Part shown: one piece after another, positions 6,303 through 61,951 of the stretch | Layout: every line of letters begins with the position of its first letter | Numbering within the stretch: the stretch's first letter is position 1 | Assembly: GCF_030463565.1 (NCBI RefSeq) | Contig: NC_134662.1 | Location: 1,984,001 to 2,048,000, forward strand | Length of the DNA stretch: 64,000 nucleotides | Origin: Pelecanus crispus | Taxonomy: Eukaryota; Chordata; Aves; Pelecaniformes; Pelecanidae | Direction: 5' to 3' | Program-made: the position numbers and the translations under genes | The notes under the pieces: model-generated | The model's database searches: none | The model's input: the letters and a program-made list of their open reading frames with translations, nothing else | What the model was told of the DNA's origin: nothing

Positions 6303-6906
6303 CGAGGACGTACACCCACTTACACCCACGTACACCCACATACAGCCATGTACACCCACGTACACCCACTTACACCCACGTACACCCATGTACAGCCATG
6401 TACACCCACTTACACCCACTGACACCCACGTACACCCACACCCATGTACAGCCATGTACACCCACGTACACCCACGTACAGCCATGTACACCCACATACA
6501 CCCACGTACACCCATGTACAGCCATGTACACCCACTTACACCCACTGACACCCACGTACAGCCATGTACACCCACATACACCCACGTACACCCATGTACA
6601 GCCACGTACAGCCATGTACACCCACATACACCCACGTACACCCACGTACAGCCATGTACACCCACATACACCCACGTACACCCATGTACAGCCACGTACA
6701 GCCATGTACACCCACATACACCCACGTACACCCACGTACAGCCATGTACACCCACATACACCCACGTATACCCATGTACAGCCATGTACACCCACATACA
6801 CCCACGTACACCCATGTACAGCCACGTACAGCCACGTACACCCACATACACCCACGTACAGCCATGTACACCCACATACACCCACGTACACCCACGTACA
6901 CCCACG
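6303..6906. repeat. 10-bp minisatellite with 90-bp higher-order repeat
   Basis: About 60 tandem copies of a 10-bp unit, TACACCCACG and variants (TACACCCACA, TACACCCATG, TACAGCCATG, TACAGCCACG). One 6-base irregularity lies near 6438. The variants are arranged in a larger pattern: the 90 bases at 6571-6660 recur exactly at 6661-6750. Open frames reading Thr-Tyr-Thr-His-Val and similar are by-products of the 30-base codon period. Confidence 0.97.
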
Positions 6907-10068: not shown

Positions 10069-10915
10069 CCGTCCCTTTTCTCTTTCTTCTCCTCATTTCC
10101 TTTCTCTTCTTTCCTTTCACTTTTCTTCTTTTTCTTTTTCTTTTTCTTCTTTTTCTCTTACTCTTTTTCTTTTTCTTCTTCTCTTTCTCTTTTTCTTCTC
10201 TTACTCTTTTTCTTTCTCTTTTTCTCTTTTTCATCTCTTTTTCTCTTCTTCTTCTTTTCCTCCTTCTCCTTCTCCTCCTTCTTCTTCTTTTTCTTATTCT
10301 TTTTCTCTTTTTCTTCTCCTTTTCCTTTTCTTTCCCTTTTCCTTCTTTTCCTCCTTTTTCTTTTTCTTCTTTTTCTTTTTCTTCTTTTTCTTTTTCTTCT
10401 TTTTCTTCTTTTTCTTTTTCTTTTTTCTTTTTCTTTTTCTTTTTCTTTTTCTTTTCCTTTTTCTTTTCCTTTTTCTTTTTCTTTTTCTTTTCCTTTTTCT
10501 TTTCCTTTTTCTTTTTCTTTTCCTTTTTCTTTTCCTTTTTCTTTTTCTTTTTCTTTTTCTTTTTCTTTTTCTTTTTCTTTTTCTTTTTCTTTTTCTTTTT
10601 CTTTTTCTTCTTTTTCTTTTTCTCTTACTCTTTTTCTTTTTCTTCTTCTCTTTCTCTTTTTCTTCTCTTACTCTTTTTCTTTCTTTTTCTTCTCTTTTTC
10701 TTCTCTTTTTCTCTTCTTCTTCTTCTTTTTCTTCTTCTCCTTCTCCTTTTTCTTCCTCTTATTCTTTTTCTTATTCTTTTTCTCTTTTTCTTCTCTTTTT
10801 CCTTTTCTTTCCCTTTTCCTTCTTTTCCTCCTTTTCCTTTTCTTCTTCCTTTTCTCTTTTCACTTTTCTTTCTTTTTTCCCCTTTTTCTTCTCCCTCCCC
10901 CCCTTTCCTCCTATC
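10069..10915 (+). repeat. Second long polypyrimidine tract, (CTTTTT)n and variants
   Basis: About 850 bases are almost exclusively pyrimidine on the + strand. The core, roughly 10350-10610, is built of CTTTTT hexamers with CCTTTT variants. It is flanked by imperfect TTC/CTCTT mixtures in which blocks such as CTCTTACTCTTTTTC recur on both sides. All three + frames stay open through it, which is why a 461-residue open frame appears; it is not a gene. Confidence 0.95.
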
Positions 10916-13400: not shown

Positions 13401-16400
13401 GACCGGCCTGGGCACGTGCCACCCGTGCTGGCTGCAGCCGCGCGACGTGGACGGCTTCGTGCTGGGTGCGAATAGCCGGGGAATTGGGTTACACTCGGGG
13501 CTGGGCTGTGGCACCCGTCAAGGTCAGGCTGTAAATTGCCTTCAGAGCACCAAGGCCTTCCGGGGTGGGGCGCGGTGGCAGGGAAGGGCTCAAATGTGGA
13601 AGCTGCCTTCCGCGCTGTGCTGCTGGAGCTAAGGGATCACCTGAGAGCAACCAGTGTCCCCGCTTGGGCCCTCCCGCCTGCCTTCAGAGGGTCCCAAACC
13701 CTGGCGAAGCAAACCTTGAACACCCAAACCTGGAGGACTGCAGATTTTCCTGTTTTTCACAGCACCGCAGAGCGAGAAAGCCAGCAGCCATCCATGAATT
13801 GACTCGGCCAAACCCTAAGGGAGCTTCCCATCTCACACCCGATAAATCCACCTGAGACCAGATTTAATCAGGAAATGCAAAAAACTGTCAAGTTTTTTCC
13901 CCCCACTGCTTTTCCCCTCTCTCCAGCAAATGGTCCTTGGCTGATAACGGCTCTGGGCTGTCTCTGGACACCCTCTCTCCACCAAGAGCAGCTCGGGAGC
14001 AACGTGCGCTCTGGTGAAATACACTTTATTGATTGCTGAATTTGTTTATCGTCCCCACTTAGAGAGCCAGATCTGAGAGCTGCTGAAGGCAGCAGGAGTT
14101 TGGCAGGAGGAGCCCGACAGGAACGGGCTGATGACAGTCACTGAGCAGTAGCCCGTGCTGATGCCAAAGGGAGATCCTTGCTGCTCCGTTCCTGTGCAAA
14201 GGAGCAAAGGTGGAGGTGGCCTGCGTGGGACCCACAGCTGCTCCTTGGGGAGAGGCTCCTTGTCCAGCGTTACTTGGTTCTCCCTGTCATTGTGGCATGA
14301 GTCGAACCCCAAACTCCCTTTTTCCCCCCGGATTCTGCAGCTGGGACTCTTGTGCCAAAGCTGAGCACAGGCAAGTGTCGCTGACTCCAAAGAAAACTTA
14401 TTTCAGGGGTTGGAGGGTCTCCAGGCGCTCCCCCCGAACCATCCCTGCATCCTCCCTCTCTCCCAGAAGGCGACGACCTTCCCCCGCCGCTGCCATCCCT
14501 CTCGGCGCTGCCGGCTTCTGCCTGCCGCGCTGCCTGACTCCAGCACTTCATTAGCACCAATTTGCTCTCATCACACTAAGTGGCAATGACTCAGGAGAAG
14601 AGTAAGGAGAAAGGAGCAGCCGGGAGGACTCCCAGGGCACCTCTGCCCAGCCCTGCCTCACGCCAGGTCCGGTCCCGGGCTGTGCTGGCAGCACGAGCGC
14701 TGAGCAGCTTGTGATGGCAGCGGTCTCCACGGGGACAATAAGAAGCAGCCGACCCTAGTCCAAAAAAAGGCCTAGAAAGGGAGGAAACGGGACAAATGGG
14801 GAAAGCGACTTTGCCAGCAGACGTGATGGCAGAGCTGGGGGCTGAGCCCAGTTCGCCTGGGTGCTGGGGAGAGTGGAGCAGGGTGCCAGGTCTCCCTTTA
14901 CGAAAGTCTCCAGAAAAGCAAGTGAAAAATCAAACCTCTGCAGGAAGGAAATGCTTTTAACAACAAACCCACATTTTAAAGTCATCTGAAACTGTTTATT
15001 TGTGTCCATGAGAGGAGTCTGATGCAGCCGACTCAGCCCAGGGCTGTCTCTGCCGGGGCCAGTAGCAGCTTACAGGACAAGAATAAAAATAGGGTAAAGG
15101 TGGAGGGATGGAGCCAAGCACACCTGCAGCCACCACAGCTTCTTGGTGTTCCTTCAGCTGCCCTCAGACCAAACTCATCAGCTTCAGCACTGGAAAAGGT
15201 GAAAATGCCATGCCGTGAAAACACAGACAAAGCTTGAGAAGTGCAGGAGAGGCAAAGCAGGCGTCCCACGGGGCTGGCATTGCCGCTCCGCTGTACGTTT
15301 GGGTGGCTCTCCTGGTCTCCTCCAGCCTCTGCCGGACCCGGCCGAAACCCCCTCTCAGGAGGGGCCTTCGTCACCCAAGCAGAGGACCGAGGCCTTGTGC
15401 TTTGCCTTGTCCCTTCCCTCCGCCCGCCAACCTGCGCTGCTCTGAAAGCCCCCGGGCTGCTGGGGAACGGGCCGGGGACATGGGTGCGGGCGGCTGGTGA
15501 AGCCTCGCAGCCCCAAATGGGTCGATCGGAGCTGCTCACTGGAACGAGTCACTGAAACCCTTCACAAGGAAAGGAAAATGCACCTAGCAACGCAGAGGCG
15601 AGCGCTTTGTCTCATCTCATCTCCTCATTTGCAGCTTTCAGAGGAAGATTTAATTTGCTGGGCTCGGGGAAGCGGCTCACCCTGCAGCGCGCTGGCTGCA
15701 TACCAATGACCGGGGGCTCTCCCCGGGTCTCGGGATTCATCCTCCGGCGGCTCCCAGGGACGCCAGCGGGGAAGCCTGTCCCCACCGAGGCAGGGACACA
15801 TGGCGCAGGGACACGCGCCGGGCCGGGAGCTCTGGCTGGACCGTGTGACTCCAACCCAGCAGGACTGCGAGGCTGCAGCTCTGCAGACGCATCGCAGCTC
15901 CCAGCCGCAAATCTCAGGCTCTGGATGGTCTCTGACGCACGGTTTTCCAAGCCTGCGGGTTTCTAGAGCGGGGCAGTTTTTACTGCAGCGTGGTTCAAAG
16001 CTTTCAGATGCTGCGGGACCCCAGCGGTCAAAATCCCTGCAGGTTTTGGAGCCCAGAAGGTTTGGTTTTTTTATTGTGTGCTGCTGAAGTCTGTTGGATT
16101 GCAGAGTTGCAGGGTGGCATTTGCAGGAATGGGCAGCGCGTGGCTGGCTCTGCCCCGGCAGTTGTGTGGTTGACACTGCATCCCCTTTGCCCATGTGTTC
16201 GCTAGTTTTTGGAATGAAATGAGGTTTCAGCAAAAAAAAGGCAAAAAGAAAGTTGGGGTTTGGTTTTTGAGCACTCTTTCTTCCTGCATTGTACACTGCT
16301 GACTCTCCCATCAGCACTGAGTCTTCCCAGCTAGAGAGGACCTGAATTTCCCCTGGAGAAATTCTCCCTATTTGTGAGAAATCTTTTTGGGCTCTTCCTA

Positions 16401-16760
16401 CAATGTAAAGAAAAGTCAAACAAACCTCTTGCAATTCCTAAGTTGCTCCAGTTCTGAGCATCCTGGCCGGTCCAACTGTGGACCAAAGGATTTTTGTTTT
16501 GCAGATGAAGCCCCCTGATCTCTGGTCCAGACTCTGCTCCAGCTTTGGGGGAGCAGATGCCGTGAGGTTAATTCAACTCAGGATCAGACACCGCTCTGCT
16601 GGCGGAGGCGCTGGGCTCATCCCAGTTTGCTCAGAGCTGCGGTTCCCCAAACCTTCCAGAATATCAGGGCAGGGTCTGAACCAGTAACACCCATTGCACA
16701 ACCCTACACCAGCCCCCCCTCTGTGAAAGAGGCTGAGATCCCTCTGCCCTTTCAAGGAGA
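13401..16760. other. Intronic sequence, no gene seen
   Basis: Mixed composition without a recognisable exon. ATTGATT (ONECUT-type core) occurs at 14028-14034, overlapping a reverse-strand AATAAA. Another reverse-strand AATAAA lies near 14998. These hint at a possible antisense transcript end, but no coding sequence supports one. Confidence 0.35.
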
Positions 16761-16800
16761 GGGGGAAACTGAGGCAGCCCAGGGGCTGACCCATCTTGAA
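16761..16800 (+). repeat. Possible MIR-like fragment
   Basis: GGGGGAAACTGAGGCAGCCC at 16761 resembles the conserved MIR segment GGAAACTGAGGCA. Flanking similarity is weak. Confidence 0.35.
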
Positions 16801-18269
16801 GGCATGGAGGGAAGCCAGCTTTGCTCAGGGCCATTTCCCACCTGGTGCCCACCAGCGAAGAGTCTGTCCTACCTCTGCACCGAAGAAACCTGTCCCAACA
16901 TGGCCAACCAGGCCCAGGTGCCCCCTCTCCATCCCTTCCTTCACCTCCCTTTGAGCCCCTAAACGCTCCTGGTCCCCTTGCACCGCTGCGAGCCGATTTG
17001 ACAGGGAGAAAAAGAGAAAAGCTGGTGGGTTTTTTTTTCCCCTAACCTCGCTTACAGCCAGCATGCTGGCTCTGAAAGCCCCTGGCTGTCTTTTGTGATT
17101 TCAACAAATCACCAGCACTTAAGCAAAGTGGGCAGAAAATTACAGGTTGTATTGCAAGTGAATGGAGAGGGAGAGCACGCTGGGGCTGAGAAAACAGAGG
17201 TTTGCGGGTATAATAGAGAAACCAGTGTCTGGCAGGCTGTGGAAGCCTGCAAAGCCATCAGGTATTAGTTAAATGCTTCGCGGAGTTCACGCTGCGAGGC
17301 ATAATCGCAGCTTCTGAACAGCAGCCGTTTGATTGTCTCTATTATGTCCCTTTAGAAATGATTTGAGAGATATTTTGCTTTGAGCTGTCAAGGTTAAGTC
17401 AAGGAAAACGCGCTCCCTCTGACATAAGTCTCCGGGGAGGCAGAAACCCTCAGCAGAAATCCTCCGGGGGAGGCAGGTGGGATGCCTCTGCTTTCAGAGG
17501 CCTTTCCTCCTGCTTTTCGCCCCAAGGTTCCTCCTTGCCTTTGCTCCCTGTGGTTTTTCTGCAGCCAGGTGATCTACCTTAGGGGTGAAATACTGCTAGG
17601 GTTGTGTGCCCGGTGTCCAGGAGGAAGGGGCTCCGTGCAGTCACCCCATCCCGCTGCGGCTGGCATTCCTTCCTTGTCACTCCTGCACTTGGCTCGTTTC
17701 AGCCGAGCCTGGCTGAGCTGCGGAGGTCTCAGAGGTGCAGGTGGTGTGAAATGAGCTGGGGAGAGACGGCGAGAGGAAAGACCTCCATTGTGGGTGAGCT
17801 CAACCCCTTACTGGCCACCGGAGCATCCCCCCTGGCCACGGGGGACCCCGGTCCTTCTCTCCCACTGTTGGCCCTGGTACCGCCAGGGTCTCCTGTGCCC
17901 CAGGAGGAGTGGGGAGCAGGACAAGCCAGGGAATAAATCCCGTGCTTTGAGCAATTGCTGGGGAGATAACACAGAGGCAGGGGTGGAAGCGCCCTGAAGC
18001 GTGTCCCCATCCCCACCAACTGCGGCCGGGCCCAAAGACCCCGGAGGGATGTGACCAAAGAACAGCGTTAAGCCAAGGGCGAGTCGTTTGGGTCTTGGGA
18101 CTTGGAAAAAAGGGATTTTGAAGCACAAAGAAAAACCCTCATCCTATGCTGGCCTGGGTGGGAGTCAGAGCCGTACCCCCGGCTGCCCCCCGTCCCCGGC
18201 TCCCACCGCCAGCCTGCCTGGGAAAGCAGCACCTGGGGGATGGGGAATAGGAAAAAGATCCTCCGTTGG
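16801..18269. other. Intronic sequence with a candidate regulatory island
   Basis: No gene was recognised. The segment at about 17080-17440 is balanced in composition, non-repetitive and rich in short AT words (for example TTTGATTGTCTC and AAATGATTTGAGAG). It differs from its GC-rich surroundings and could be a conserved noncoding element. Confidence 0.3.
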
Positions 18270-18420
18270 GGGGTTGATGGCCGCCGTAAATAGATCTGAC
18301 CAGCGTCACTATTGATTTCTGTTGTGCGGAGCTGTAATTAGATTGAACTGGGGAAGAGGGGTGTTGGGCTGCGTCAGCAGAAAAAGAAATTAATAAATAA
18401 ACAAACGAGCACAGGAAATG
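18270..18420. promoter_or_regulatory. Candidate enhancer with ONECUT and FOX motifs
   Basis: An AT-richer patch contains TATTGATTT around 18310-18318 (HNF6/ONECUT core), TAATTAGATT near 18334 (homeodomain type), and TAAACAAAC at 18398-18406 (forkhead core) within about 100 bases. ONECUT and FOXA factors are known to share liver and pancreas enhancers, and an intronic site in an ONECUT gene would allow feedback. Motif matches of this length also occur by chance. Confidence 0.3.
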
Positions 18421-21371
18421 TGGGATGTGTCCGCTGCCGGCGTCGCAGGCCAAAAATAACAAGGGGTGTCAAGGGGTGCAGAGCAGGGTGTCACCCCTGT
18501 CTGAGCAATACTCGGCACCGGTTTGAACGCTGGATCACAGTTTTACCAGCAAGACCCCGACGGTTAACGTTTGCCTCGGAGCTTCGAGTTATTAATGGGC
18601 GACTAGTTTGTAACGATTACTCCTAAAAATTGAAGCGGGGGGTGGGGATGCGAGGTTGGAAAGCTGAAATGCTGGGTCCCAGGCTGGCTGTCCAGCACCG
18701 CTGGTGCGAATGGGTGCCAGCAGGCAGGAGAGCAAGAGGACAACCTGGATCTCAGTGGCTTTGCTTGGGTTACGGCTGGCTCAGCACATCACCCTGCACG
18801 TCCCGTGGGGGCATGGCTGTATTTGCACATACCTACACACGCTTGTAGGTGCCTGGTGTGCACGTGGGAGAGAGATGTGTAAGTGTAAGATGTGTAAGGC
18901 GTAAGTGCCATCCACGCAGAGCAAAAGCCGTGCTCACAGGGAGCGTGCGAGGTGCCCACCGTCGGTACGAGGTCCCACCCGCGCCACTGGCACGGGACCG
19001 GAGCCGAGCATGCCGGGGGGACGCCGGGAGGGTGCGTGGTGGGCGGGCGAGGGGTCCGGCAGGGCGAAGACGTGCTGCTCTGAATGTGCACGTGCGGTGT
19101 GGGGGGGGACTTTTTCTGTTTGTTTGGTTTGGGGGGGAGTTTGGGGGGGTCTTTTTTTTTTTTTTTTAATTCATGTCTGGAAAAAAGTCAAATTTTCTAT
19201 AAAGGCTTTTTTTTGTTTGTTCTTTTTGCAAGCATCTGATGGTCATAGGGTAGGTTTCCACTAAAACATTCTCTGCTGGCTGTTTGAGTAAGGTACCCCT
19301 GGGACAGGATCCCCCGGCACCACCACTGCCCCTTGTCCCTGAGGATGGTGGTTTGCAGCCAAACCTGCCTGGGGGGGAGAAGGGGAGGGGAAGGTTCTCC
19401 ACTAACCGTCTTTACCAGAGACGGCTGATTTTGACTGAGTGTGGTTGGTTGTGCCAAGCTTGGTGCCTCCTGTCCCCTGCCCCAGCGGGAGCAGAACCGA
19501 AGGCTCCCACCACCCGCATGGGGACGGGGCGAGGACCGAGGCTAACAAGGCTAAATTTGTTGGATAAATTACCTGCTTCACTGAGCTCTAGATCTCCCCA
19601 GCTTTGGGTGGAAGGGGTGGATATCATCCTTCTCTGTTAGTTCAAGGTCATGTAAAGAGGACTTGTAGTGCAGGCCAGCACTGAAAAATCAGAGGAAGAC
19701 CTTCCTTGTTCTCTAATGAGGACAAAGTGACTTCAAACACCCCCCTGTTACTCCTAGGCTACATGGCTACCTACCCTTTTACTCAGCCTGGCCGTGGGGT
19801 GCGTTTTGTATAGCAGGCAGGTAGTTAGCCTGAAGGGAACACCTGTCCCGTGGACCCAAGATGCTGTCCCATCGTGGCAGTAGTGGCTTTCAGCCTTGGC
19901 CTCTGGCCCCTCCAAGGTCTGTGCACCAAAGAGGCTCCTGGAAGTGCCTGAGAGAAGCAAGTTGAAGCCTGTCATCCAGCAACGTTCTGACAGCAAATGT
20001 CTCAAAGGACCTGTGCCATCCCTGCAAAATCCTTTGGAAGATCCAAACCAAGAAACCCCAAAGGCTGAAAACTGCTGCTATTTGGGGCAAGAGCGGGGCT
20101 TTCCTCAGAAAGTCTTTCGCCTACAGTTTCCTAACTCTTTTCTGAGCTTTCCAGGAGGAAACAGTGTGTCCCCAGCCTTGGAGGGCCAGATCCGTGCCCT
20201 GCCTTGCCCATGGGCCTCTCGCACTCTGCAGTGCCTGCACGTGTCTGGCCAAGTCCTGACCCGGCGAAGCTCAAGAAGAAGCTTGAGCACCCTGATCTAA
20301 CCTCAACAGATTCGAGGTCATCCCCACTTTGAGTAGGAACTGGACCAGCAACCTCCACCAGCCTCAGTTATTCGATAATTTTCTAGAAAAATATCATAGC
20401 AAAAGGCTCCTTTTCTCACCCCTTCCACCAACAGCGTGCCTAATATTCCTGCAATTAAAATTCATATATTTACCAAAAGGTGCATACTTGCCTCCCCCCC
20501 TCCCTTGCACACAGCGTGGCGGTGTCAGGGGGGTTTTCCTGGCTTCCCACAGCCCGTCCCCGTGTGACAGCACCTCTGTCCTGACCTACCGCTCAGGCCA
20601 AATCTGTTGGGAAGGCTTTTAATTCGGTGCTGGCTCAAGCTGACACGTGCCACAGAATCCAGTAGCAAAGGCACGCAGGGGAGACTGAATTCCTGGATTT
20701 TCGGGTGGCTCAGGCTCTTCTCCAGCCTCCAAAGGCAGGAAAACCCCTTCCCAGAGCAGGTGGAACCAGGAATGGTCCTTCCAGGCTGTCTGCTGTGGGA
20801 TGTGGTGGCTGCACACTGGCCTTTTCACGGTGTGCCTGTCCCTGTCTGTTCCTTGCCTTTCAGAGGTGGCAGCTGGACGTGATGGCCAGGAGACACCAGT
20901 TCCCTGAGTCCTCCAGCGAGGTCCACAGAGGTGATGAGGAAGCAAGGGAGACCACACCAGAGTGCAGAGAGGGAGGGAGGCTGATGGATGACCCCCAAAA
21001 CTTAGGGACAGAGCAGGTCCCAATAGCCAGGCTGTGGGAGCAGAGTCAGCCCAGGAGTTTCCTTGGTCTCTAGTCCCAGGGTCAGCTGGAGATGCTGAGA
21101 CTTGGGCTTTTCCTGGGCATCTGAAGAGGTGATGGGCTTCACCCAGGCTTTTCGCATACTGATGTCGCAAGAGGCTGTCGTCCCATCTCAGCAGACGCTC
21201 AGGAGGCACAGGGAGGAAGAGGAGGGAGGTAGCCTAGGGAGTGGTGGGCAACAAGCCAGCAGGTTTACTGGAGGGAAGGGCCTGGTTTTTGGGAGGCAGC
21301 CAGGCAACCTGCAAGCGGGCCAGGGTGGTGAGCACCAATTAATGGCCCTATTCTCTCTTTTGAACATCTAG
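18421..21371. other. Intronic sequence up to the ONECUT3 acceptor
   Basis: No gene or clear transposable element was recognised. The intron ends with a pyrimidine-rich stretch and the acceptor AG at 21370-21371. Confidence 0.45.
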
Positions 21372-21664
21372 CTTGCAAACGCAAAGAGCAAGAGCAGCAG
21401 AAAGACAGGAGCCTGCAGCCCAAGAAGCAGCGGCTGGTCTTCACGGACCTCCAGCGCCGCACCCTGATCGCCATCTTCAAGGAGAACAAGCGCCCATCCA
21501 AGGAGATGCAGATGACCATCTCGCAGCAGCTGGGCTTGGAGCTAAACACCGTCAGCAACTTCTTCATGAATGCCCGCCGGCGGTGTATGAACCGCTGGCA
21601 GGAGGAGCCAGGCACCAACCCCGGAGTCCCCTCTTCTTCTACAAGCACTTTCTCCAAAGCATGA
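21372..21664 (+). CDS. ONECUT3: ONECUT3 last coding exon: homeodomain and C-terminus
   Basis: This exon encodes the end of a ONECUT (HNF6-family) transcription factor, a nuclear protein that binds DNA through one CUT domain plus a divergent homeodomain. Two bases after the acceptor AG (21370-21371) complete a codon split by the intron. Then come 96 codons, starting CKRKEQEQQKDR and ending TFSKA, with TGA at 21662-21664. The homeodomain covers about residues 16-76 of this segment. Its recognition helix contains SNFFMNARRR, the family's Phe at homeodomain position 48 and Met at position 50 in place of the usual Trp and Gln. The C-terminal wording and the ATP8B3-REXO1 neighbourhood favour ONECUT3 over ONECUT1 or ONECUT2. 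The CUT-domain exon is not in the window; ONECUT genes normally have two coding exons with a long intron between them. Confidence 0.95.
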
Positions 21665-22931
21665 TGTCCCCCAGACCTCCCTGCCCCTTCCCGGACATCC
21701 TCCTCATGACAAAGCCAACCCCAGACTCACACGCGTGCCCCGAGCCGACCGGGGTGGGTGCTTTTGGATGCTGCGGGTCCATCAGCCTCCCAAACCCTCA
21801 GCCGGGTGTTACCCCTGGACGTGGGCCTTGTGCCACATCCTGCTGCCATGTCCTCCCAGCTCGTGGAGCAGGGAAAGGGTTTGCAGCCAGGTCAGCTCTG
21901 TCCCCAGGAGGGCTCGGAGGAAACCCCTGTGGAGCGAGGGATGATGTGGAATGGAGGGAGAGGGGAAGGTGCTGTTTGGAAGCATCCCTGGTCCTCAGGG
22001 ACCGCAGAACCTTGTCCTCACCTGCCCACCAGAGTCTCTGGGGAGAGGGGCACCCCCTGACCCCCCCACCAACCTCGATCTCTGCCACAGCCACCCTTAC
22101 GGCTCCCACGGTGGAGGAGTAAAGGTGGGGGAGGTACAAGAAATGGAGTCATGGGGCTGGGCTCTGGCACAACCCCACCAAACCAGGGCCAAAGCCCCCG
22201 TGGTTCCAAGGGGGACGAGCAGGGAAAATGCTCCCCGTGTGCCCAGAGGGTGACCCCAGGCTCCTGCCAGGGCTCTGGCTGCTGAAGCTTTTTCCCCCCG
22301 GAGGTGCGGTGGGGTTCCCCAAGCAGCCAGACCCTCTCTGCCATTGGCACACGGGCGTTTCTCTCCCTTGAAGGTTTTGAAAACCTCGTTGAGGGCATCC
22401 CTGCAGCCCCAGTCTCCTCCTCCACGGGCATCTTCCTCCGACCCTACCCCCCCCCCCCCCGACACCCCCAAGAGCACCCACGTCCCCCAGCCCCCCACGC
22501 ACACACGCACCCTGACCCGCGAGAGCACCCATCCCCGGATCCCTCCCAGAGAAACTCCACAGCAAAGGAGACGCCCTCGCTGTGGCCGTCCGCCTCCGCG
22601 CGCCCGAGCATCCCCCAGCGCCGCGGCTGGAGGGGGACCACGGCTGCACCGCGTCGCCTGGCGCCCAAGCAGGTCAAAGAAGCACATTTTAGCTACAGAA
22701 ATCGGGTATTTAAAAATAATAATTGTTTGAAACGAGACGGGAGGAGAGACTTGGAGCGAAGGATCTGATCTTTCCTGGTGACTGGCTCCACCATTCACCG
22801 CTGGATTTCTGGTTCACTTTTCGGTTGAGGAATGGACTCAGACAAAGCAGATTTGTTGGCTTTGTGTCTCGCCCCATCCACCCCTCGACACACACTATTG
22901 CCCCCTCCCATGCCCCCTCTTCATCTCTGTT

Positions 22932-22939
22932 ACCAAAGA
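22932..22939 (+). promoter_or_regulatory. miR-9 8-mer seed match
   Basis: ACCAAAGA is complementary to miR-9 positions 2-8 with an A opposite position 1. It lies in the ONECUT3 3' UTR; ONECUT1/2 are known miR-9 targets. Confidence 0.6.
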
Positions 22940-23523
22940 AATTACAAAACCAAAAACCCAACAACAAAAAAATTCCCTCCTGGGAACCAACGTCGGTGTA
23001 CGGTGGGAAAAGAAAAATCCGAGGGATCTGGTGGCGAAATCCAGCCCTGGGTGTGAGAAGGGGGAAAACTCCCCGGTGAGATTGAAAGGGAAAAACACAA
23101 CCCAAAAAAAAGGAATAACAACAGAAACCACAACCAAACAAGCTCAACGCAAAGACCGGCAACTTACCAAAAAGACGCCAGATTTTTTTTTTTGTGCCAA
23201 TTAACAACCTGCCTTAAAACGCGAATTTCTGGAGCAATGGTACTAGCTTCAAAACGATCGTTTCCTCCGAGCTCTCAATGGTGACTTGTGCCATATAAAA
23301 AAGCAATCACGAGGCCAAACCCTTACAATCGGCCCTCGTCCCAGCTGCCCCACAGGCTCCTTGCCAGCCTGGGGTGTCCTCGGGAGGAGCAGGAGGTGCC
23401 GCCGGGGACAGGGGAGGACTGGGAGAGGCTTGGGGATGGAGGGGAGGCAAGGTCCCCTCCTTCCCCCACCACTTGAGGAAAAAAAAAAAACAACCCTCCA
23501 AAACCAACCATCAACCAAAAAAA

Positions 23524-23530
23524 ACCAAAG
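23524..23530 (+). promoter_or_regulatory. miR-9 7-mer seed match
   Basis: ACCAAAG followed by G (7mer-m8 type), in an A-rich context. Confidence 0.45.
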
Positions 23531-23820
23531 GGACACTATTGAATTTATGCGGGTAAAATAGTACCATCTGTGTTCTAGCGCTATGGTTTCTTCGATTCAC
23601 TTTACTTTGAGAGCAATCTGTTGTGTAACAGGAAGGCACCTTGTTGAAAAGAAGGAAAAAAGGAAAAAAAAAAAGTGTATGTGTTCACCAAAAAAACCCA
23701 AAAAAGCACCCCAAAAAATGAGGAAAGAAAGGACAAAAGAATGAAAGAAAGAAAGAAAAATCCCCTGCACACGAAGCCCTGACCAGCCGCGGTCACCAGC
23801 GGGGTTAGAGGACGTCTTTA

Positions 23821-23828
23821 ACCAAAGA
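23821..23828 (+). promoter_or_regulatory. miR-9 8-mer seed match, extended
   Basis: TAACCAAAGA at 23819-23828 pairs with ten consecutive bases at the miR-9 5' end, the longest match in the window. Confidence 0.65.
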
Positions 23829-24373
23829 GCTCCTGGGGTAGGTGGGCGGTGGAGGGGTTGGGGGGTGTCAGACTGGACACGGTCACACCAAACTAAACCA
23901 ATTTATTGCTGGAAAGAGAGGGCGGGAGAGAGGGATGGAGAGAGGGAAGGAGCGGGAAGGGGCAGGTGCCGCAGCGTATTTTGCCAACCACAACCCAAAA
24001 ACTAATGGCAAAACGAATCTCATCCCCCCCCAGGACCCCGCTCCCCGCCACTGATTTTTTTTCCCCTAACGTTGTTTCTTCTTGTCTTGTCGTGATGTGG
24101 TGACGATGGTGGTGGATTCCTGAACCCCATCAAGTAGTATTCAAGGGCTGAAAAGCCAGGAAGGGGGCCTTGGTTTGGGAAGTGAAAAACACACAGAAAA
24201 AAAAAAAGGGAAAAAAAGGAAAAGAAAGAAAAAGAAAAAAAAAAAGAAAAGAAAAAAAAAAGAGTAAATGCCACAGGCCCTCAAGGATGCAAAGACATTT
24301 CTAGTGAGAACCCGAGAATAAAGGCTACCTCACTTGAGTTTTCAATTTTTGTGATTTGAAAATCACGTCTGAT

Positions 24374-24381
24374 ACCAAAGA
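24374..24381 (+). promoter_or_regulatory. miR-9 8-mer seed match
   Basis: ACCAAAGA inside GATACCAAAGA, an 11-mer that recurs at 25599 and 28087. Confidence 0.6.
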
Positions 24382-24583
24382 TTTTGTTGCCTTGTCTGGT
24401 CTGTGCTGGAAATGCCACTTTCCCTGCTCCCCGCGGCCGGGCCGGCCGAGAGCCCCCCGCCCTGGCCGAGAGCCCCTCACCGCCCCCAGCCCCCCCAGCC
24501 CCGTCGAGTCCCCAGAGAGCGAGGGCGAAGGCGAGCGAGCGACCCCGGGATGGCAGCGTGGTAGATGAGTGCCTTTTTCTTGT

Positions 24584-24590
24584 ACCAAAG
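24584..24590 (+). promoter_or_regulatory. miR-9 7-mer seed match
   Basis: ACCAAAG followed by G. A GTGCCTT word (miR-124 seed match) lies about 15 bases upstream at 24569. Confidence 0.45.
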
Positions 24591-25601
24591 GTGTGTGGCC
24601 ATTTCTTTGCTCCTCTGCTTTGATCCTAAAGACTCACTATTACCTCAGCTCTCCAAAGGGATGGATTCTGGCAACTCGTGTAGTCTTTGGGTGTTGGGAT
24701 GAAGGAAAGAAACCCAACCCTTGTCCTAATTGAAGGGAAAAGGTCCCCCCTTGCCGCCCACTGTGGGAAAGGTGCTGGTTTCCCAGCATGTCCCCCCCTC
24801 TCAGATGTCCCTGTGTCCCCCAACCTGGCGTGGTCCCCAGGGTCCCTCCATCCAGCCCCTCTTGCCTCAGGAGCGCTGACCTGGTGTCCAGGTCCCTTTT
24901 TGCAGTGCTCCCGGGGGAAGGCTTTGCTCCGCGTCCTTCGTCAGCCCAGCTCGGCACTGGGGCCCTACAGAAGCCCACGAGATGTAGGTGTGGGTGTCAT
25001 CACGGGGCGTTCCTTCCTCGCTCAGCTCGGACTTGGTTCCCCTGTCGGGTAGTGCAAGGCGGGTTCGTGGCATTTCTGTGTGGGCAGATGAAGGCAGGAG
25101 TGGTGGAAAGCCTCACCCTGGGCTTTCGTCAAACCCTTGCTTTAGGGAACGGTTTGGAGCTGTGAAACCTTTCAGCAGGAACCGTTTCCAAGTCCCCAAA
25201 GGGGCATTTTTGGCTTGTTGGAGGAGATGGGCACAGCCGGGTCCACTCCACCGCTCAGCTTTAGCAAAAGGCAATGGGAGGACCCGCTGGAGAAGGTCTC
25301 GGCAATCTCCAGAATGTCTAGTTTAGGGAAATCTTGGGTTGAATTGTACCTACTTGGTTCAGGCTCCGGCCGAGGCGGCTCCTTTTGAGTTGGACCAAAC
25401 TTGCCCAGGGCCAACCCCCCTGGGGACAACAAGCCCGGCCGGGACCCCTGCAGGGTCCTCCATCCCCTGGGCAACCTGGCAGAGCCGGTCAGAGCGTCCC
25501 CGTCCCACCGTTCCCCCTCCACACTATTGCCTTGGCCAGATCTTGCCCGACCCCGTGGCCATGCCACCCCGCTTCTACCTGATACCCACATGGCTTGTGA
25601 T

Positions 25602-25609
25602 ACCAAAGA
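25602..25609 (+). promoter_or_regulatory. miR-9 8-mer seed match
   Basis: ACCAAAGA inside the recurring 11-mer GATACCAAAGA. Confidence 0.6.
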
Positions 25610-25885
25610 CGTTCTCTATGCAGGAGAAAGCCTTCTTTTCCACCCAGCACAGACCTTACAAGCCTTTGACAATGTTCTCTGAAATACCTCAAAATATTTA
25701 ATGTATAGTTTATGTGATAAAAAAAAAATTACTTAGCTAGTTTTTGGAATTTGTGACTTGAAGCTTTATACTGTTAAATTATAATTTTGCAGAAGACGGC
25801 ATGTTCTTATTTCTTTGACGCGTTCAGTGGGAGACATATTGAATGTTAAGGAAATGAAAGATGGATAGTTTCACGATTAAAAAAA

Positions 25886-25917
<32 letters not shown>

Positions 25918-28089
25918 AAGATTAAAAAAAAGGACCCTTGGAGTTTACAGATTTCATATTTAAACAAGTCCTTTTAAAAAAAAAGAAAAAAAAGAAAAAC
26001 TAATAATGATGACGATACCTTTGCGTTCAGATGTGTTACTTTTCTCTGAGTCATGTCGTACAAGAGTATTTATTATATGTGTTCTGTGTTCAAATGTAAT
26101 TTAAAGAAGACAAAAAAAAAGACAAAAAAAAAAAAGACAAGATGAGAATTTGATTTATGCATGAAAAAAATATACTCTTTCTTGAAGTAATGTAATAATT
26201 ATTCGGGAGGGGTGGTCGGGTGGGAGCGGGAGGGGACAAACTGTGCTTTTTTTGTCCACGAGTTTTTGGTTGATGAGGACTTTTCTGCATGGATCATGTT
26301 TTTTTCCAACTCACGCAACCACAGGAGAGTCGTCATTTATCCCCTCGGTTTCTTCCTTCGCATCTTTTCTTCATTTCCTCACCCTGAAAATTGCATGGCA
26401 GCGATGCGGGGAGGCAGGGGCCTGCTCAGAGGACCCCCGGGGAGGACAGGGTGCACGACGTGGCCCCGTGCCCGGCAAGCAGGGTAAGGGTATCTGGGGC
26501 ACGAGACCCTGGCATGTGCGCCCACCCGTCCCACCTGCTGCCGTGGGGTCCAGCTCCTCGCCATGCTTTGGGTTTGGTTTTTTGGTTTGCGGTTTTTTTT
26601 TTTTTTGCTTTATCCAGCTCCATGGGTCAAATCCCAAGTGCAGACAAGAGGAGAGACAATCAGCCGCCATGACCTGAGCCAGCAAAGCCACGGGGCTCCG
26701 CGTGTGCTCTGAGACAAGGGAAATGCCGCCGAGCACCCCAAACCTCCCCCTGGGGGCTGAGACCTTTCCAGGTGATGCTCCCAAGTCCCTGTCCCTCGGG
26801 GCGACCTCACAGATGTGCCTCTGCCCTTGCCCTGCATGGAAGGAAGCGCTGAAGATGGTGCTGCATCAACGCCCAACCGGACCCAGGGATGGACTGGAGT
26901 GACCCGTTTCTGAGGTCTTTCTCCCCAGGGATGTGGTTTGGGTCAGAGGCACCACCCAGCACACAGTGCCTGCCCCTGCCAGGCTTTCCTGTGCCACCCA
27001 GCCCGGCTCTCACCCTGCACGGAGACACCCGCTCTGGTTGAAGGGGTGAGAGGAAGAAGAAGAATCCAGCCAGTGGAAGAGGCCCCGGAGGACCCCGGCC
27101 ACCAGCAGGTCTCAGGGGACTTTGGAAAGTCTCCCTGCATGCCCTAGCCAGCCAGGGAGCTTTCTGCAAATGCCCAGAGAGCTCCCCCGAACAGGGCTGC
27201 ATCCCCTGCTCCTTCCTCCCCCTGCTCCTCCTCCTCTCCTTGCTTACAGGCAGGGGGAGAGTAGCAGCAAGGGATCACATCTTTGGAGGTCAGGAAGGTG
27301 ATGGGGGCCTGGAGGAGGCAGTGGTACCTAATTCTTTCTGTTTCCCCACCATTACCAGAGCATTTACCTTAAAATGCTGATTCCTCAGCCTTGTCCAGCC
27401 TTTCACCACTCCATCCTTCACCTCTGTCACCAGAGGTGGCCCCAAAGCTCAGCCCACTGCGAGGAAAGAGATCTCAGCTTCTTTGGGCCCCACCGGAGTG
27501 GCCCCCAAAAGCAAAGTAGGGTTTGGTTTTTTTTTAATCTGCATCTCTTGTCTAATGCAGTGTCCCTGCAGCCTTCCCCGCCTTCATGGCCAGCACCGAG
27601 ATGCTCAGTACCAGGTGGTGGTGGGAGACATGGGACCCACTGACCGAGGACCTGGGGTTTAGGAAGGAAGAGATGGTGTTTATTCCAGCAGCACCATTCA
27701 TCTACTAACCAACCTTCCTGTCCTCCAGGGAGCTCTGCATCCCCCCCTTGTCCCATTTCCTCCTACAAGACCTTTTCCACCATGAGAAGCTTTGGTGCTT
27801 GGAGGCCAAGACCTCATGTCCAACCACAAGAAGGTCTCACCAGGCTTGGATGCAACCCAGTCACAAGTCGTCGGGCCTTATAGAGACCAGCTGGTTTCCA
27901 TCACGGGGCATGAACCGAGTGGCTTGGGAAACCCCGGAGAAGCCAAGAGCTGAGCGCTCTCCCCTGTCCTTTAGCCCACCAGGACTTGCTGGATCAACCG
28001 TGGGCAGGCTGAGCCCTGCCCCATGCCAGATCTGGCCGTGCCTGCTGCCCACATCAACCAAAATGCCTTGAGGAGCAACTTGCCACGAT

Positions 28090-28097
28090 ACCAAAGA
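28090..28097 (+). promoter_or_regulatory. miR-9 8-mer seed match, most distal
   Basis: ACCAAAGA inside the third copy of GATACCAAAGA. Its position supports a 3' UTR that extends past 28 kb. Confidence 0.55.
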
Positions 28098-29636
28098 TTT
28101 TTTTTCTTTTCCCTGCAGGTAATGACAATCTGAGCTCTGTCCTAAAGACAATTCTCTCAATGAGGGTTGCCCTCGAAGGGCATTTTTGTGCTGTGGGAGC
28201 AGGAGCAAAACCAGGACCCCAGGGGCAACCTCTGAGGGTGATGGAGAGCAGACTGTCGGAGGGTGAGGAAGAGGAGGGGACCCAGGATCTCCCACTGAGA
28301 CCTGCTGGTTCCGGCTGGCCACCATCTCCTACTTCAGTTGTGGAAGTTTGCAGGGATTTGGGTCATTTCATTACCTGTGATGCTCCCCAGGCACTCCGGT
28401 TCCAGCTTGGGTGGAAGTTTTCCATGGATGGCTTTTGTGCTTTGAAGACCCACCACTGGCAGCGGGGCAGTGCTGTCCCGTCCCAGCGGGTGAGCAGGAG
28501 GAGCATGGGCTCCCCGAGGTGCCCGGCTGGGTTTTAGCCATTGTCATTCCATTATGGCGTAGTCAGAGCTGAGCTTTTCCTGCCCTAAGGACGGCTCCAC
28601 TGACAGGACATCAGCACAGAGCAGGCCAGGAGCTGGTGTTTCTCCATGCCGAGAAACGGCTTTGCCAAAAAAAAAAAAATCACCACTCATCCCTTTGCCT
28701 GAGCGTCTGAAGTCTGGGTGGGGAAGATGATCAGCTCCTCGTTACCTCTCTCCCGAACCCGCTTTGGGCATCGTGAAGATGCCGCTGGGTGGGGTTGGCT
28801 GCCGGCACCGCGCCAGCACCGCGCCGGCATGCTGCGTGTCCCCGGCACTGAATTGGCTCCTTTTCCCTTGTCTCAGAGGACACCCGCGACCGAGGCAGCG
28901 CTGGCAGCCGGCGATGGGGCTGGACCTGCAGACGCTGCCGCGCAGAACCCGGTTCCTCTTGTGTCTTTCTTTCTTTGGGGCTTTTAAAGAGAGGAAGTTA
29001 AAAATGCAAAGAACAAAATTAAGGGTTTTTCTCTTGTTTGTTTTTTTTTTTTTTTTCTTTTTCCCCTTAAAATTCTAAAGGAACAAAAGAAGTCAGACAG
29101 AATTAATCCCAGCCAGGAAGAACCCGCAGCCTCGGGTTTGCCAGTCCAGCCTCCTCCAGAAAACATTGATCATTTTTCTGTATAGCAATAGGCAACGCTC
29201 GCCCTTGTCCCGCACGGTCCGAGGGCTGCATCTCTGAGTTTTTAAATGACTTTTTCCTTAATTAAATTGATTTTTTTTTTTCTGCTGCTTCATTGTTACT
29301 CTCATGGGATAGGTTTTACTCTACAGCGAAATGCAATTGTTACTCCTCTGTGTCTTGCAACTATATTTGTTTAAGCTATTTACAAACGTTAAAAAAGAAA
29401 AAAAAAAAAAAAAAAAGAGTCTTATGTGTCAGGCACTTTATCCAAACTGTGCTGTGTGCTCTGGAGTTTGTTCCTTGTTCTTTGCAATGACTCATGCAGG
29501 GGAGGTTACCAGGAAACTTAACTCCAGCCTGTCAACAGGTTTTAAAAGAGAAAAAAAAAAAAAAAAAATTAATCTCTATTTGTTCATCCTCTACTGGTCA
29601 TGACTGTGTTGTATTTCTGCAGCTTTCTGTTTCTTC

Positions 29637-29642
29637 AATAAA
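29637..29642 (+). terminator. ONECUT3: Poly(A) signal, probable distal end of ONECUT3
   Basis: AATAAA follows a T-rich stretch, and a GT-rich element (GGCGTGCGTG) lies about 25 bases downstream. This is the expected arrangement of a vertebrate cleavage site near 29660. Confidence 0.6.
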
Positions 29643-29660
29643 TTATTTTCTAGTCATTCA

Positions 29661-31400
29661 CCCTGGCGTGCGTGATTCCCTGCTGATGCAGCTCCGCTGC
29701 CCCAGGAGCTGCTCGGGCAGGAGGAGGGCTGCTGGGAGGAGTAGCCCCATTTTAGCCATCTCAGCCCCTCTCCCTAGACCTGGCCTGAGAGCACCAGCGG
29801 CTGGGTTTGGGGATCATGCCCAGGCAGCTGGGAAGGGTTTCCCCCCCCCCAGTTTTCCAGCTGGTACGTGCAGGGGTAAGAGCTTTCCCAGAGGAAGCCT
29901 CAGATACTTTATTTCTTGGCACCACCCAGCATCCTTCTGGCCAGAGCCCAAAGAAAACGCTTTAATTCTCACAAACTCAGCGCAGATGAGGCCAAAGCAC
30001 TTGTTAAACAAACCCATCAAGTTGTGTGTGCTGCAGGCAGGTACCAGCCCCCATGGCTGATTTAATTATTTATCTTTTTACCTGAATATCTTGTCCTACT
30101 GTGAATTTTGCCATGGTACAAGTGCTGGCGGGTGGCAAAGAGCTGGTGGCGCACACCGAGGGACCACAGGACCTTTCTGTGCATTTTTCGCCCTCGGTGG
30201 CATAGCAGAGATTTACAGGAGAGGAGAGAAAAGCTAAAGTCCTTTTAATTAAAAAATAAAAACAATAAAAAGGGTGATCCGGTCACCAGTCAGTTGTTCA
30301 CACACAACGTTGCCAGCAGCCGCTGCTGACGTCCCCAAAGCACGGCTCTGCAGGACGCATGCTCCCGTGCCCGCTGGGCAGAGCTGATGCACATCACCCT
30401 GACGCTTTGCCCTCCCCCCCCGAAAAAAAGTACTTTTCAGGGCTTTGCAGCAAACAGCCTGTGGCCACAAGCTGTCCCCAAAAATGGGGACATAGGTCCT
30501 GGGGGAGTGGGAGATGGCTGCTGGGGAGATGGGGCACAGCTCGTAGCAGACACCACGGCCGTGTGCACCTCATGCGGGGATGGCAAAGACAAGGAGGTGG
30601 GGAGCGATGAGGAGAGGCTGCAAGAAGCCAGGCTGGAGAAACACCTGCAGGTAATCAACCATACATAGGTCCTCCTCCAGAAAATAGGGGGCATTTCAAA
30701 ATTATGCTGCTCGTATCCAATCTGTTGAGTCAATGCATGTGAAAGCCACGGGGGCCAGATCCAGCCCTGCGTGGCAAGGGCAGCTGGCTCTGCCCCGCGC
30801 TCCTTGCGGTCATGGGAAAACAAGACGAGGGTCTTCATGCAGCCGCTGCAGCTCAGCCCCCGGCGTGGGTGGGAGCGAGCAGGGGCGAAGGGCTGCACCC
30901 ACCACCCAGCCCCACTGCTGGTCTTGCATCAGGGCTTTGCATTAATTCAGAGGAGGAATAACGAGCCTGGGGCAGCAGAGTTGCTGTTTGTGGGTCCAGC
31001 CTGGAGCAGGATCAGCTTTGGGCAGGAGGAAGCCCCAGCTCTGAGGGGGCTCAGCAGAGGGAAGGGGCTGGGGTGCCAGCCAGGGAGCTGTGGGGTGAGG
31101 GCCAAGCGTGGCAGCAGAGGTTGGTGGTTTTCACAGCTTTACAGGCTCCTGCAAAGCCCGTGAACACGCCGCGTGGGGGAGATGGAGCTGCTGGCAGGAT
31201 ACGTCCCAGGGCTCAGGGCCCAGAGCAGCAGCACACGAGGTGGGGCCGGCCCCTCCGCAGCCATGGGAGCTGCCCACGCTTCAAACCCATCCAAATAAGA
31301 TTAATAAAATGCCCTTAAAAGGAGGGAGCCAGCCAGTTCTGTGCCTTGACAGCACCTCCCCTGTCCCAGCATGGTGGGAGGTTGGTGCCGGCCAGGGCAG
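29661..31400. other. Intergenic / convergent 3' ends of ONECUT3 and ATP8B3
   Basis: No coding exon was recognised. ATP8B3 3' UTR must run into this interval on the - strand. No clean reverse-strand AATAAA was found; weak ATTAAA-type words lie near 30243 and 30061. A + strand AATAAA at 31304 could be a cryptic ONECUT3 end. Confidence 0.4.
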
Positions 31401-48286
<16,886 letters not shown>

Positions 48287-49073
48287 GCTGGCGCTGCTAC
48301 CAGGATCTAGGAACGAGGACAACCAAAGATATTTGCAACACTGAGCAATGGCAGCACGATCCCTCCGGGATGCTCCAACATCCCAAAGCCAGGCCCTCCA
48401 CCTCTCCAGGGCAGGACATCACACAGAGGGGACACTCTGCTGGGCACAGCTGGGGATGAGTATCTTTCCTGGAGCCGCAAACTAACGTAGACCTTTTTAC
48501 TACCCTGGAGATGTAAAACCCCATTTTGACACGCAGTCCTCTGTAGCCATCTAAATGTCACAGATCAGTATCATCAGGCTGAATATTTGTCATCAGAAAA
48601 TGTCTTTCTCCCTTTGACGCCTGATGTCCTTTGCCCTGCCTTTTGCATGACCAGCCACAGCTCAGATCTGCATTGAAATCCACTTCACCCTGGCATTTTT
48701 TTTTTTCCCCCAACAGTCACAGATTTGCCCTTCATGGGTGCCTTATGCTTACTCAGACCTTGCATGGGCATTGGCACTGAGGGTTGCCTGGATAGACCCC
48801 TGCCTTCTCAGTGTCATCAGGGATGCTCGATGGCTTTGGCATGGGTCATCTTTCAGACCCACTGCCACCCAGTCCCGGCTTCCCATGACAACTCAAAGAC
48901 ATTTTTCCTCTCTGAGGAAGTTATGGGAAATCAGTTGAAGTCATCAGCGAGGAAGAGAATCTCTCCCTGTCCTGCCATCGCACCTGAGCATCCGTCATGC
49001 CTAGAGAACAGCTACCTTCATCAATGACAAGATTTTCCTTACGCTCAGTAGCTCAGTGACCTTCCCTGCAGGG
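48287..49073. other. Upstream flank of ATP8B3, no gene seen
   Basis: A 5' UTR exon or promoter of ATP8B3 may lie here or further right, but no CpG-rich promoter is evident. No other gene was recognised. Confidence 0.35.
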
Positions 49074-61059: not shown

Positions 61060-61951
61060 CTGGGGACAGAAAGACAAGGATGGCAGTCACCACCTCGGCC
61101 CAGGCAGCCCCTCCGCTGCGCCGGCGCTGCCTGCTCGCAGCACAAAGCACAGAGGAAGGCTTCCTGAGACGAGGTCCTGCCTGACACCGCTGGCCCTGCT
61201 GCTTGCTGCCCTGTGCCACAGCAGCCACAGGTGCATCTGTGATCACCGTGAACCACAGCGATGGATTTAAAGTAGAATTTCCAATAAACACAGTTTCTTG
61301 CAGGACTCCAGCCTGACACCGTTCCCTTATTTAAATTAAGGGCTGAGGTCCTGCTAGTTTGTAGGCCCTCAGGCTATGGAGTAGCTGGTCAGAGAGGCCT
61401 CAATTTCCCCAGCAGTATGTTTACAATCATAGAATGCTTTAGGTTGGAAGGGACCTTGAGAGATCATCGAGCCCAACCCCCCTGCAGTAAGCAGGGATTG
61501 AACCTGTGAACTTGGTGTTATTAGCACCATGCTCTAACCAACTGAGCTACCTGGCTGGTCACAATGTGCTCAAGGAAGATGGAAAAGAACACGCCATGCT
61601 TCAAACAGAAAGGTCAATCTCAGTTTGGTAGAGAGAGAAGGGAGGGCATGACATGGCCTTGACAGAGCTTCCTCTGGCTGCCTCACACCACTTCTCTGGT
61701 CCCCACTTAGCACAGAGAGGGAAGAAGCAAGTGCTGCTGGCCCTCAGAACGGGGTTCAAACTGAAATTGTCTGTGGCAGAGACTTCATATGCCGGGCCAT
61801 TCACATCTAGTGCCAGACACTATGCAGGAAAAAAAAGATTAGGAGTAAGCGGATGGGGCCTGGGGAGAGCAGAGGAAGGCGGGTCCAAGGAGCCCACATC
61901 CAGGTGGGAAGGGACACGAGCCCCTCACTCTCAGCTCCTCCTTGGTCTCAC
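61060..61951. other. Last intron of REXO1
   Basis: An 892-base GT-AG intron. Apart from the SINE at 61426-61560 it holds nothing recognisable. Confidence 0.85.
61426..61560 (-). mobile_element. tRNA-Ile-derived SINE with CR1 tail (TguSINE1-like)
   Basis: Read on the - strand, the 5' part is tRNA-like. It has an A box (TAGCTCAGTTGG), the anticodon region GTGCTAATAACACC (AAT, isoleucine) and a B box (GGTTCAATCC). It then passes directly into the avian CR1 3' end: GGTTGGGCTCGATGATCTCT, AAGGTCCCTTCCAACC and terminal ATTCTATGATT. A tRNA-Ile head fused to a CR1 tail is the structure described for TguSINE1 in zebra finch. The acceptor-stem half is replaced by tail, so this is not a tRNA gene. It lies in the sense orientation in the last REXO1 intron. 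Confidence 0.85.

Follow-up and report, generated by a model that had tools for sequence, protein, structure and literature searches.

A cluster of miR-9 seed matches in the putative 3' untranslated region of a probable pelican ONECUT3 gene

A stretch of 64,000 nucleotides from the pelican Pelecanus crispus (contig NC_134662.1, positions 1,984,001 to 2,048,000 of the forward strand; hereafter, the window) carries seven matches to the seed of the microRNA miR-9 on the sense strand downstream of the homeodomain exon of an ONECUT gene, most likely ONECUT3. The cluster is real, is not produced by chance and consists of canonical sites; furthermore, it is strongly biased to the sense strand, and intact miR-9 genes are present in the same genome. 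The seven matches are probably (we estimate about 90%) ordinary canonical miR-9-5p targets in a long ONECUT3 3' untranslated region (UTR).

Seed matches downstream of the ONECUT homeodomain exon

In the first-pass annotation of the window, five ACCAAAGA 8-mers and two further ACCAAAG 7-mers were placed on the + strand between positions 22932 and 28097, in what was taken to be the 3' region of ONECUT3. All seven were located, the 8-mers at 22932, 23821, 24374, 25602 and 28090 and the 7-mers at 23524 and 24584, and they lie on the sense strand of the putative UTR downstream of the ONECUT homeodomain exon (Table 1). By type, these seed matches comprise five 8mer and two 7mer-m8 sites. The longer word described as common to three of the 8-mers was identified as GATACCAAAGA, starting at 24371, 25599 and 28087, and the site described as extending to ten paired bases is TAACCAAAGA. 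The opposite strand of the UTR contains no 8-mer and a single 7-mer (27790). The window as a whole includes eight ACCAAAGA 8-mers, all on the + strand and none on the − strand, one of which is located far downstream, at 48322.

The host gene belongs to the ONECUT family, and its last coding exon, with a start taken from the AG at 21370-21371, ends in a TGA stop codon at 21662-21664. This exon scores about equally against its closest relatives of solved structure, the PDB chains of HNF6/ONECUT1 (122 bits) and ONECUT2 (117 bits). A CUT-domain peptide, located by motif matching, is encoded on the same strand from approximately C20:1982051, that is, 1.9 kb upstream of the window start; the intron between the CUT and homeodomain exons spans about 23 kb, and the two domains are split over two exons as in ONECUT genes. 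Among the best candidates scored in the 1.31 Gb assembly, two ONECUT homeodomain exons were found, the one in the window and one on contig C46, and ONECUT1 was not recovered among these candidates. The C46 gene is ONECUT2, with 75 of 76 residues identical to a PDB ONECUT2 chain. Because the other homeodomain exon found is that of ONECUT2, and because the C-terminus encoded in the window resembles that of ONECUT3, the window gene is most likely ONECUT3, an assignment made by elimination and by the C-terminus. Homeodomain scans identified no relative in viral contigs (33 pattern stretches) or prokaryote contigs (464 pattern stretches).

Predicted RNAduplex energies for the seven UTR sites range from -10.6 to -19.2 kcal/mol, and the predicted 8-nt accessibility is above the UTR median for six of the seven, with 24584 at the 18th percentile. 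Duplex energy was rejected as a discriminator between UTR and intronic sites because an intronic 8-mer, at 18054, scores -16.7 kcal/mol. At each GATACCAAAGA site, the predicted duplex pairs miR-9 positions 1-7, leaves a one-base bulge in the microRNA and pairs positions 9-12. Genome-wide, GATACCAAAGA is not enriched (384 + 421 = 805 matches, vs 428 + 453 = 881 for the reversed control). Three copies on one strand of 8 kb have a Poisson probability of ~2e-9 at the genome density, for a word that was picked after the fact. The copy at 24371 and the one at 28087 are 87% identical across 23 nt; an origin of the GATACCAAAGA copies by internal duplication is not claimed because the upstream flanks of these two differ by eye.

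Table 1. Coordinates, within the window, of the ONECUT exon, the putative UTR and the miR-9 seed matches
Feature	Position	Strand	Basis
Last coding exon, most likely ONECUT3 (homeodomain and C-terminus)	21372..21664	+	Pfam Homeodomain match
Putative 3' UTR, ~8 kb	21665..29660	+	stop codon to AATAAA at 29637
miR-9 8mer site 1, TTACCAAAGA	22932..22939	+	sequence match
miR-9 7mer-m8 site 2, A-rich stretch	23524..23530	+	sequence match
miR-9 8mer site 3, TAACCAAAGA, ten contiguous miR-9 pairs	23819..23828	+	predicted duplex, -19.2 kcal/mol
Candidate proximal poly(A) signal, AATAAA	24317..24322	+	hexamer scan; T/GT-rich stretch follows
miR-9 8mer site 4, within GATACCAAAGA	24371..24381	+	sequence match
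miR-9 7mer-m8 site 5	24584..24590	+	sequence match
miR-9 8mer site 6, within GATACCAAAGA	25599..25609	+	predicted duplex, -18.2 kcal/mol
miR-9 8mer site 7, within GATACCAAAGA	28087..28097	+	sequence match
Probable distal poly(A) signal, AATAAA	29637..29642	+	hexamer scan

Excess over chance and strand bias

The site counts were compared with those in shuffled sequences (1,000 each, preserving di-, tri- or tetranucleotides; k = 2, 3, 4), both for the whole UTR (21665-29665) and for the interval 22932-28097. The whole-UTR figure is the fairer one because the interval was picked after the sites had been seen. Against the five 8-mers present in the whole UTR, the shuffles yield 0.35, 0.42 and 0.44, and none of the 1,000 reaches five at any k; the seven 7mer-m8 matches, with 1.06-1.46 expected, are reached by 0, 1 and 0 of 1,000 shuffles. 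Within the interval, five 8-mers are likewise reached in 0 of 1,000 shuffles at each k, and the expectation is 0.29-0.48, so that the value of about 0.1 given in the first-pass annotation was too low by approximately three to five times. Once simple repeats had been filtered out, 1,134 distinct 8-mers ending in A were left, and of these ACCAAAGA alone has at least five UTR copies. When 81 microRNA seeds were ranked by their UTR matches, miR-9 came first. On the antisense strand of the UTR, CTTTGGTA also has five copies, being the complement of TACCAAAG at the identical sites. In a Markov ranking of UTR words with at least three copies, low-complexity words included, ACCAAAGA takes the 16th, 10th and 8th places at orders 1-3 (P ~4e-5 to 1e-4), and TACCAAAG, which overlaps it, scores stronger.

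The excess is local because the counts over the whole window, both strands combined, show no excess of 7-mers (14 ACCAAAG vs 14.26 expected) and a mild excess of 8-mers (8 ACCAAAGA vs 2.98 expected, with 4 of 100 shuffles reaching 8). The window-wide 7-mer count tempers the result of the chance tests, as does the UTR total of five CCAAAGA, which is reached by 45-55 of 1,000 shuffles. One could accordingly ask whether the sites simply cluster by chance in an A- and CCAAA-rich UTR, where runs such as AACCAAAAACC lift the ACCAAAG background. The local 8-mer expectation is indeed several times the value first assumed, the site at 23524 lies within an AACCAAAAACC-type run, ACCAAAGA also occurs outside the UTR (two intronic copies and the one at 48322), and the 7-mers are not in excess over the window. 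However, shuffles fail to produce five 8-mers even when tetranucleotides are preserved, no other repeat-filtered 8-mer ending in A attains five UTR copies, and other loci in the same genome carry ACCAAAGA at ~24 per Mb per strand, which predicts 0.2 copies per 8 kb (a rate based on just 3 matches over 61 kb). Chance clustering is therefore a very improbable explanation.

The distribution between strands bears on another alternative, namely, that the words act as DNA within an enhancer, perhaps as CTTTG cores of the TCF/SOX type, rather than as sites in RNA. CTTTG is present when the miR-9 word is read on its opposite strand, and two copies of the word are intronic. A DNA-binding site, however, would be expected in both orientations, whereas the 8-mers number five sense and none antisense in the UTR and eight and none in the window. 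The same one-sidedness is seen at the paralogue, where the 16 kb that follow the ONECUT2 coding sequence contain eight ACCAAAG (three of them within 8-mers) in the sense orientation and none in the antisense. This explanation appears even less probable than chance clustering.

The first 10 kb of this ONECUT2 stretch contain three 8-mers vs 0.22 expected (1 of 1,000 Markov samples reaches three) and six 7-mers vs 0.91 expected; only the 8-mer figure was used as a control. For the comparison of the two genes, two short N stretches of the ONECUT2 region were left out, and no convincing site-by-site alignment between the ONECUT3 UTR and these 16 kb of ONECUT2 was obtained with blastn or shared words. 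A 16-base exact match on the same strand, ATTTCTAGTGAGAACC, connects positions 24297-24312 of the window with sequence downstream of the ONECUT2 coding region. Homology between the two UTRs is unproven because two 15-base exact matches on the opposite strand are nearly as long as ATTTCTAGTGAGAACC, several of the top-scoring matches are A- or T-rich runs, and one 43-base same-strand match has an E value of 0.11. ATTTCTAGTGAGAACC immediately precedes the candidate proximal poly(A) signal; it may be what is left of a UTR element of an ancestral ONECUT gene, or else a chance match.

miR-9 genes and the regulation of ONECUT genes

The genome contains at least two miR-9 loci: the Rfam mir-9 family (RF00237) matches at C7:9525163 and C20:5079000, and the 23-nt miR-9-5p is intact at both, on the + strand. 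The second of these genes (C20:5079000-5079075) shares a 7.4 Mb contig with ONECUT3, the two being ~3.07 Mb apart. In neurons and neural progenitors, Argonaute with miR-9 would pair by the seed at up to seven sites in the ONECUT3 mRNA. Such pairing would lower ONECUT3 mRNA and protein, just as miR-9 lowers the mRNAs of the whole ONECUT family in human 293T cells. In this scheme, the ONECUT3 mRNA would have to reach 29637 in cells that express miR-9, and the seven sites would have to be bound by miR-9 and used in this animal. A study by Luxenhofer et al. (2014, Dev Biol) reportedly deals with how miR-9 controls Onecut genes while motor neurons develop, a system that would resemble the pelican case in involving miR-9 and the ONECUT family. 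Table 1 of a review (PMC6861003) places Luxenhofer et al. 2014 under chicken, with Foxp1 as the target.

The miR-9-ONECUT3 link is not new and is already known for the same gene in mammals. According to Deng et al. 2024 (PMC10914762), the top vertebrate-conserved TargetScan targets of miR-9 include OCT-1 and all three ONECUT genes; the human and mouse ONECUT3 UTRs contain multiple 8mer sites for miR-9; the human ONECUT3 3' UTR is repressed by miR-9 in luciferase assays; and transfection of miR-9 reduces ONECUT3 mRNA in 293T and Neuro-2a cells and, in human 293T cells, the mRNAs of all three family members. The mammalian system shares with the pelican gene the gene itself, the microRNA and the multiple 8mers in the 3' UTR; the mammalian evidence is experimental, whereas the bird gene is described by its sequence alone. 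Thus, the sense-strand excess in the UTR, the intact miR-9 and the repression reported in mammals (PMC10914762) support the inference, made in the first-pass annotation, of multi-site control of ONECUT3 by miR-9. The link demonstrated in mammalian cells probably extends to a second amniote lineage, and its presence there would support the view that the circuit arose early and serves the development of neural tissue and retina. Little is added in principle because all three ONECUT genes already figure among the vertebrate-conserved miR-9 targets ranked by TargetScan (PMC10914762). The available parts of PMC6582315, PMC6761228, PMC6861003, PMC5824543 and PMC7303929 do not treat ONECUT3 and miR-9 together. 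By title, no bird ONECUT3 study was found in the literature on ONECUT3 and miR-9 or on ONECUT3 and microRNA UTR targets, a result that does not show absence, given that Deng et al., which prints OC3, was also missed.

Several observations weigh against the reading of the seven matches as ordinary miR-9 targets. Two + strand ACCAAAGA 8-mers, at 18054-18061 and 19925-19932, are located in the ONECUT3 intron (14000-21363), where 0.17-0.23 are expected and 11-23 of 1,000 shuffles reach two. Part of the + strand excess therefore lies outside the mature mRNA, so that an argument built on the UTR alone loses a little of its force, and the RNAduplex energies of these intronic copies (-16.7 kcal/mol at 18054 and -11.6 kcal/mol at 19925) fall within the range of the UTR sites. 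No CCAAAGA (7mer-A1) is found on the sense strand of the UTR apart from those in the five 8-mers. When the flanks of the ONECUT3 and ONECUT2 sites were compared, 1 of 56 pairs exceeded the 99th percentile of 1,000 random pairs, which is about the chance level. Few ONECUT3 reads were obtained by photoactivatable ribonucleoside-enhanced crosslinking and immunoprecipitation (PAR-CLIP), for which the authors suggest low expression as a possible reason (PMC10914762, available parts). Finally, PMC10356556 describes an ONECUT2 3' UTR of 14.6 kb in which 13 miR-9 sites are conserved and another 13 are not, and reports that the ONECUT2 mRNA is resilient to miR-9; therefore, a large number of sites does not by itself imply strong repression. 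The ONECUT2 3' UTR of that study is like that of the bird ONECUT3 in being long and containing many miR-9 sites, and the bird ONECUT2 shows sites too; it differs in its larger number of sites and in the reported resilience (PMC10356556).

Polyadenylation choice and other features of the window

Only two AATAAA hexamers were detected in a scan of positions 21665-29700, at 24317 and 29637, and the number of sites available to miR-9 would depend on which of them is used. Should the proximal signal be used, the sites at 24374, 24584, 25602 and 28090 (4 of 7) would be lost; most sites would then be absent from the main transcript, and miR-9 would act via three sites, two of them 8-mers. The scarcity of the hexamer and the presence of TTTTCAATTTTTGTGATTTG directly after the AATAAA at 24317 fit such a use, whereas UGUA is lacking in the 70 bases upstream of 24317 and is present for 29637; we regard this alternative as unlikely. 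More doubtful still is a graded system, in which the choice of poly(A) signal would toggle the ONECUT3 mRNA between weak and strong sensitivity to miR-9. Alternative polyadenylation would have this effect because the three GATACCAAAGA 8-mers all lie downstream of 24317. Beyond the reading of the seven sites as ordinary miR-9 targets, a polyadenylation choice that may change the number of usable sites and the shared word GATACCAAAGA are two small leads of modest weight.

Another word, CACTATTG, is present in three copies on the + strand of the UTR (22893, 23534 and 25522), compared with ~0.03-0.07 expected, and in one more at 18307; it is not known to correspond to any conserved microRNA seed. 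Elsewhere in the window, ten open reading frames between 34777 and 62237, drawn from the 330 in the window that are 90 codons or longer and pass a composition filter, produced no Pfam matches. The ONECUT3 intron includes tandem arrays at 6308-6906 and 10126-10879, with the 10-bp unit ACGTACACCC repeated ~60 times and ~124 copies of TTCTTT. A tRNA-like match (RF00005; 36.4 bits, over the gathering score) was identified on the − strand at 61491-61549.

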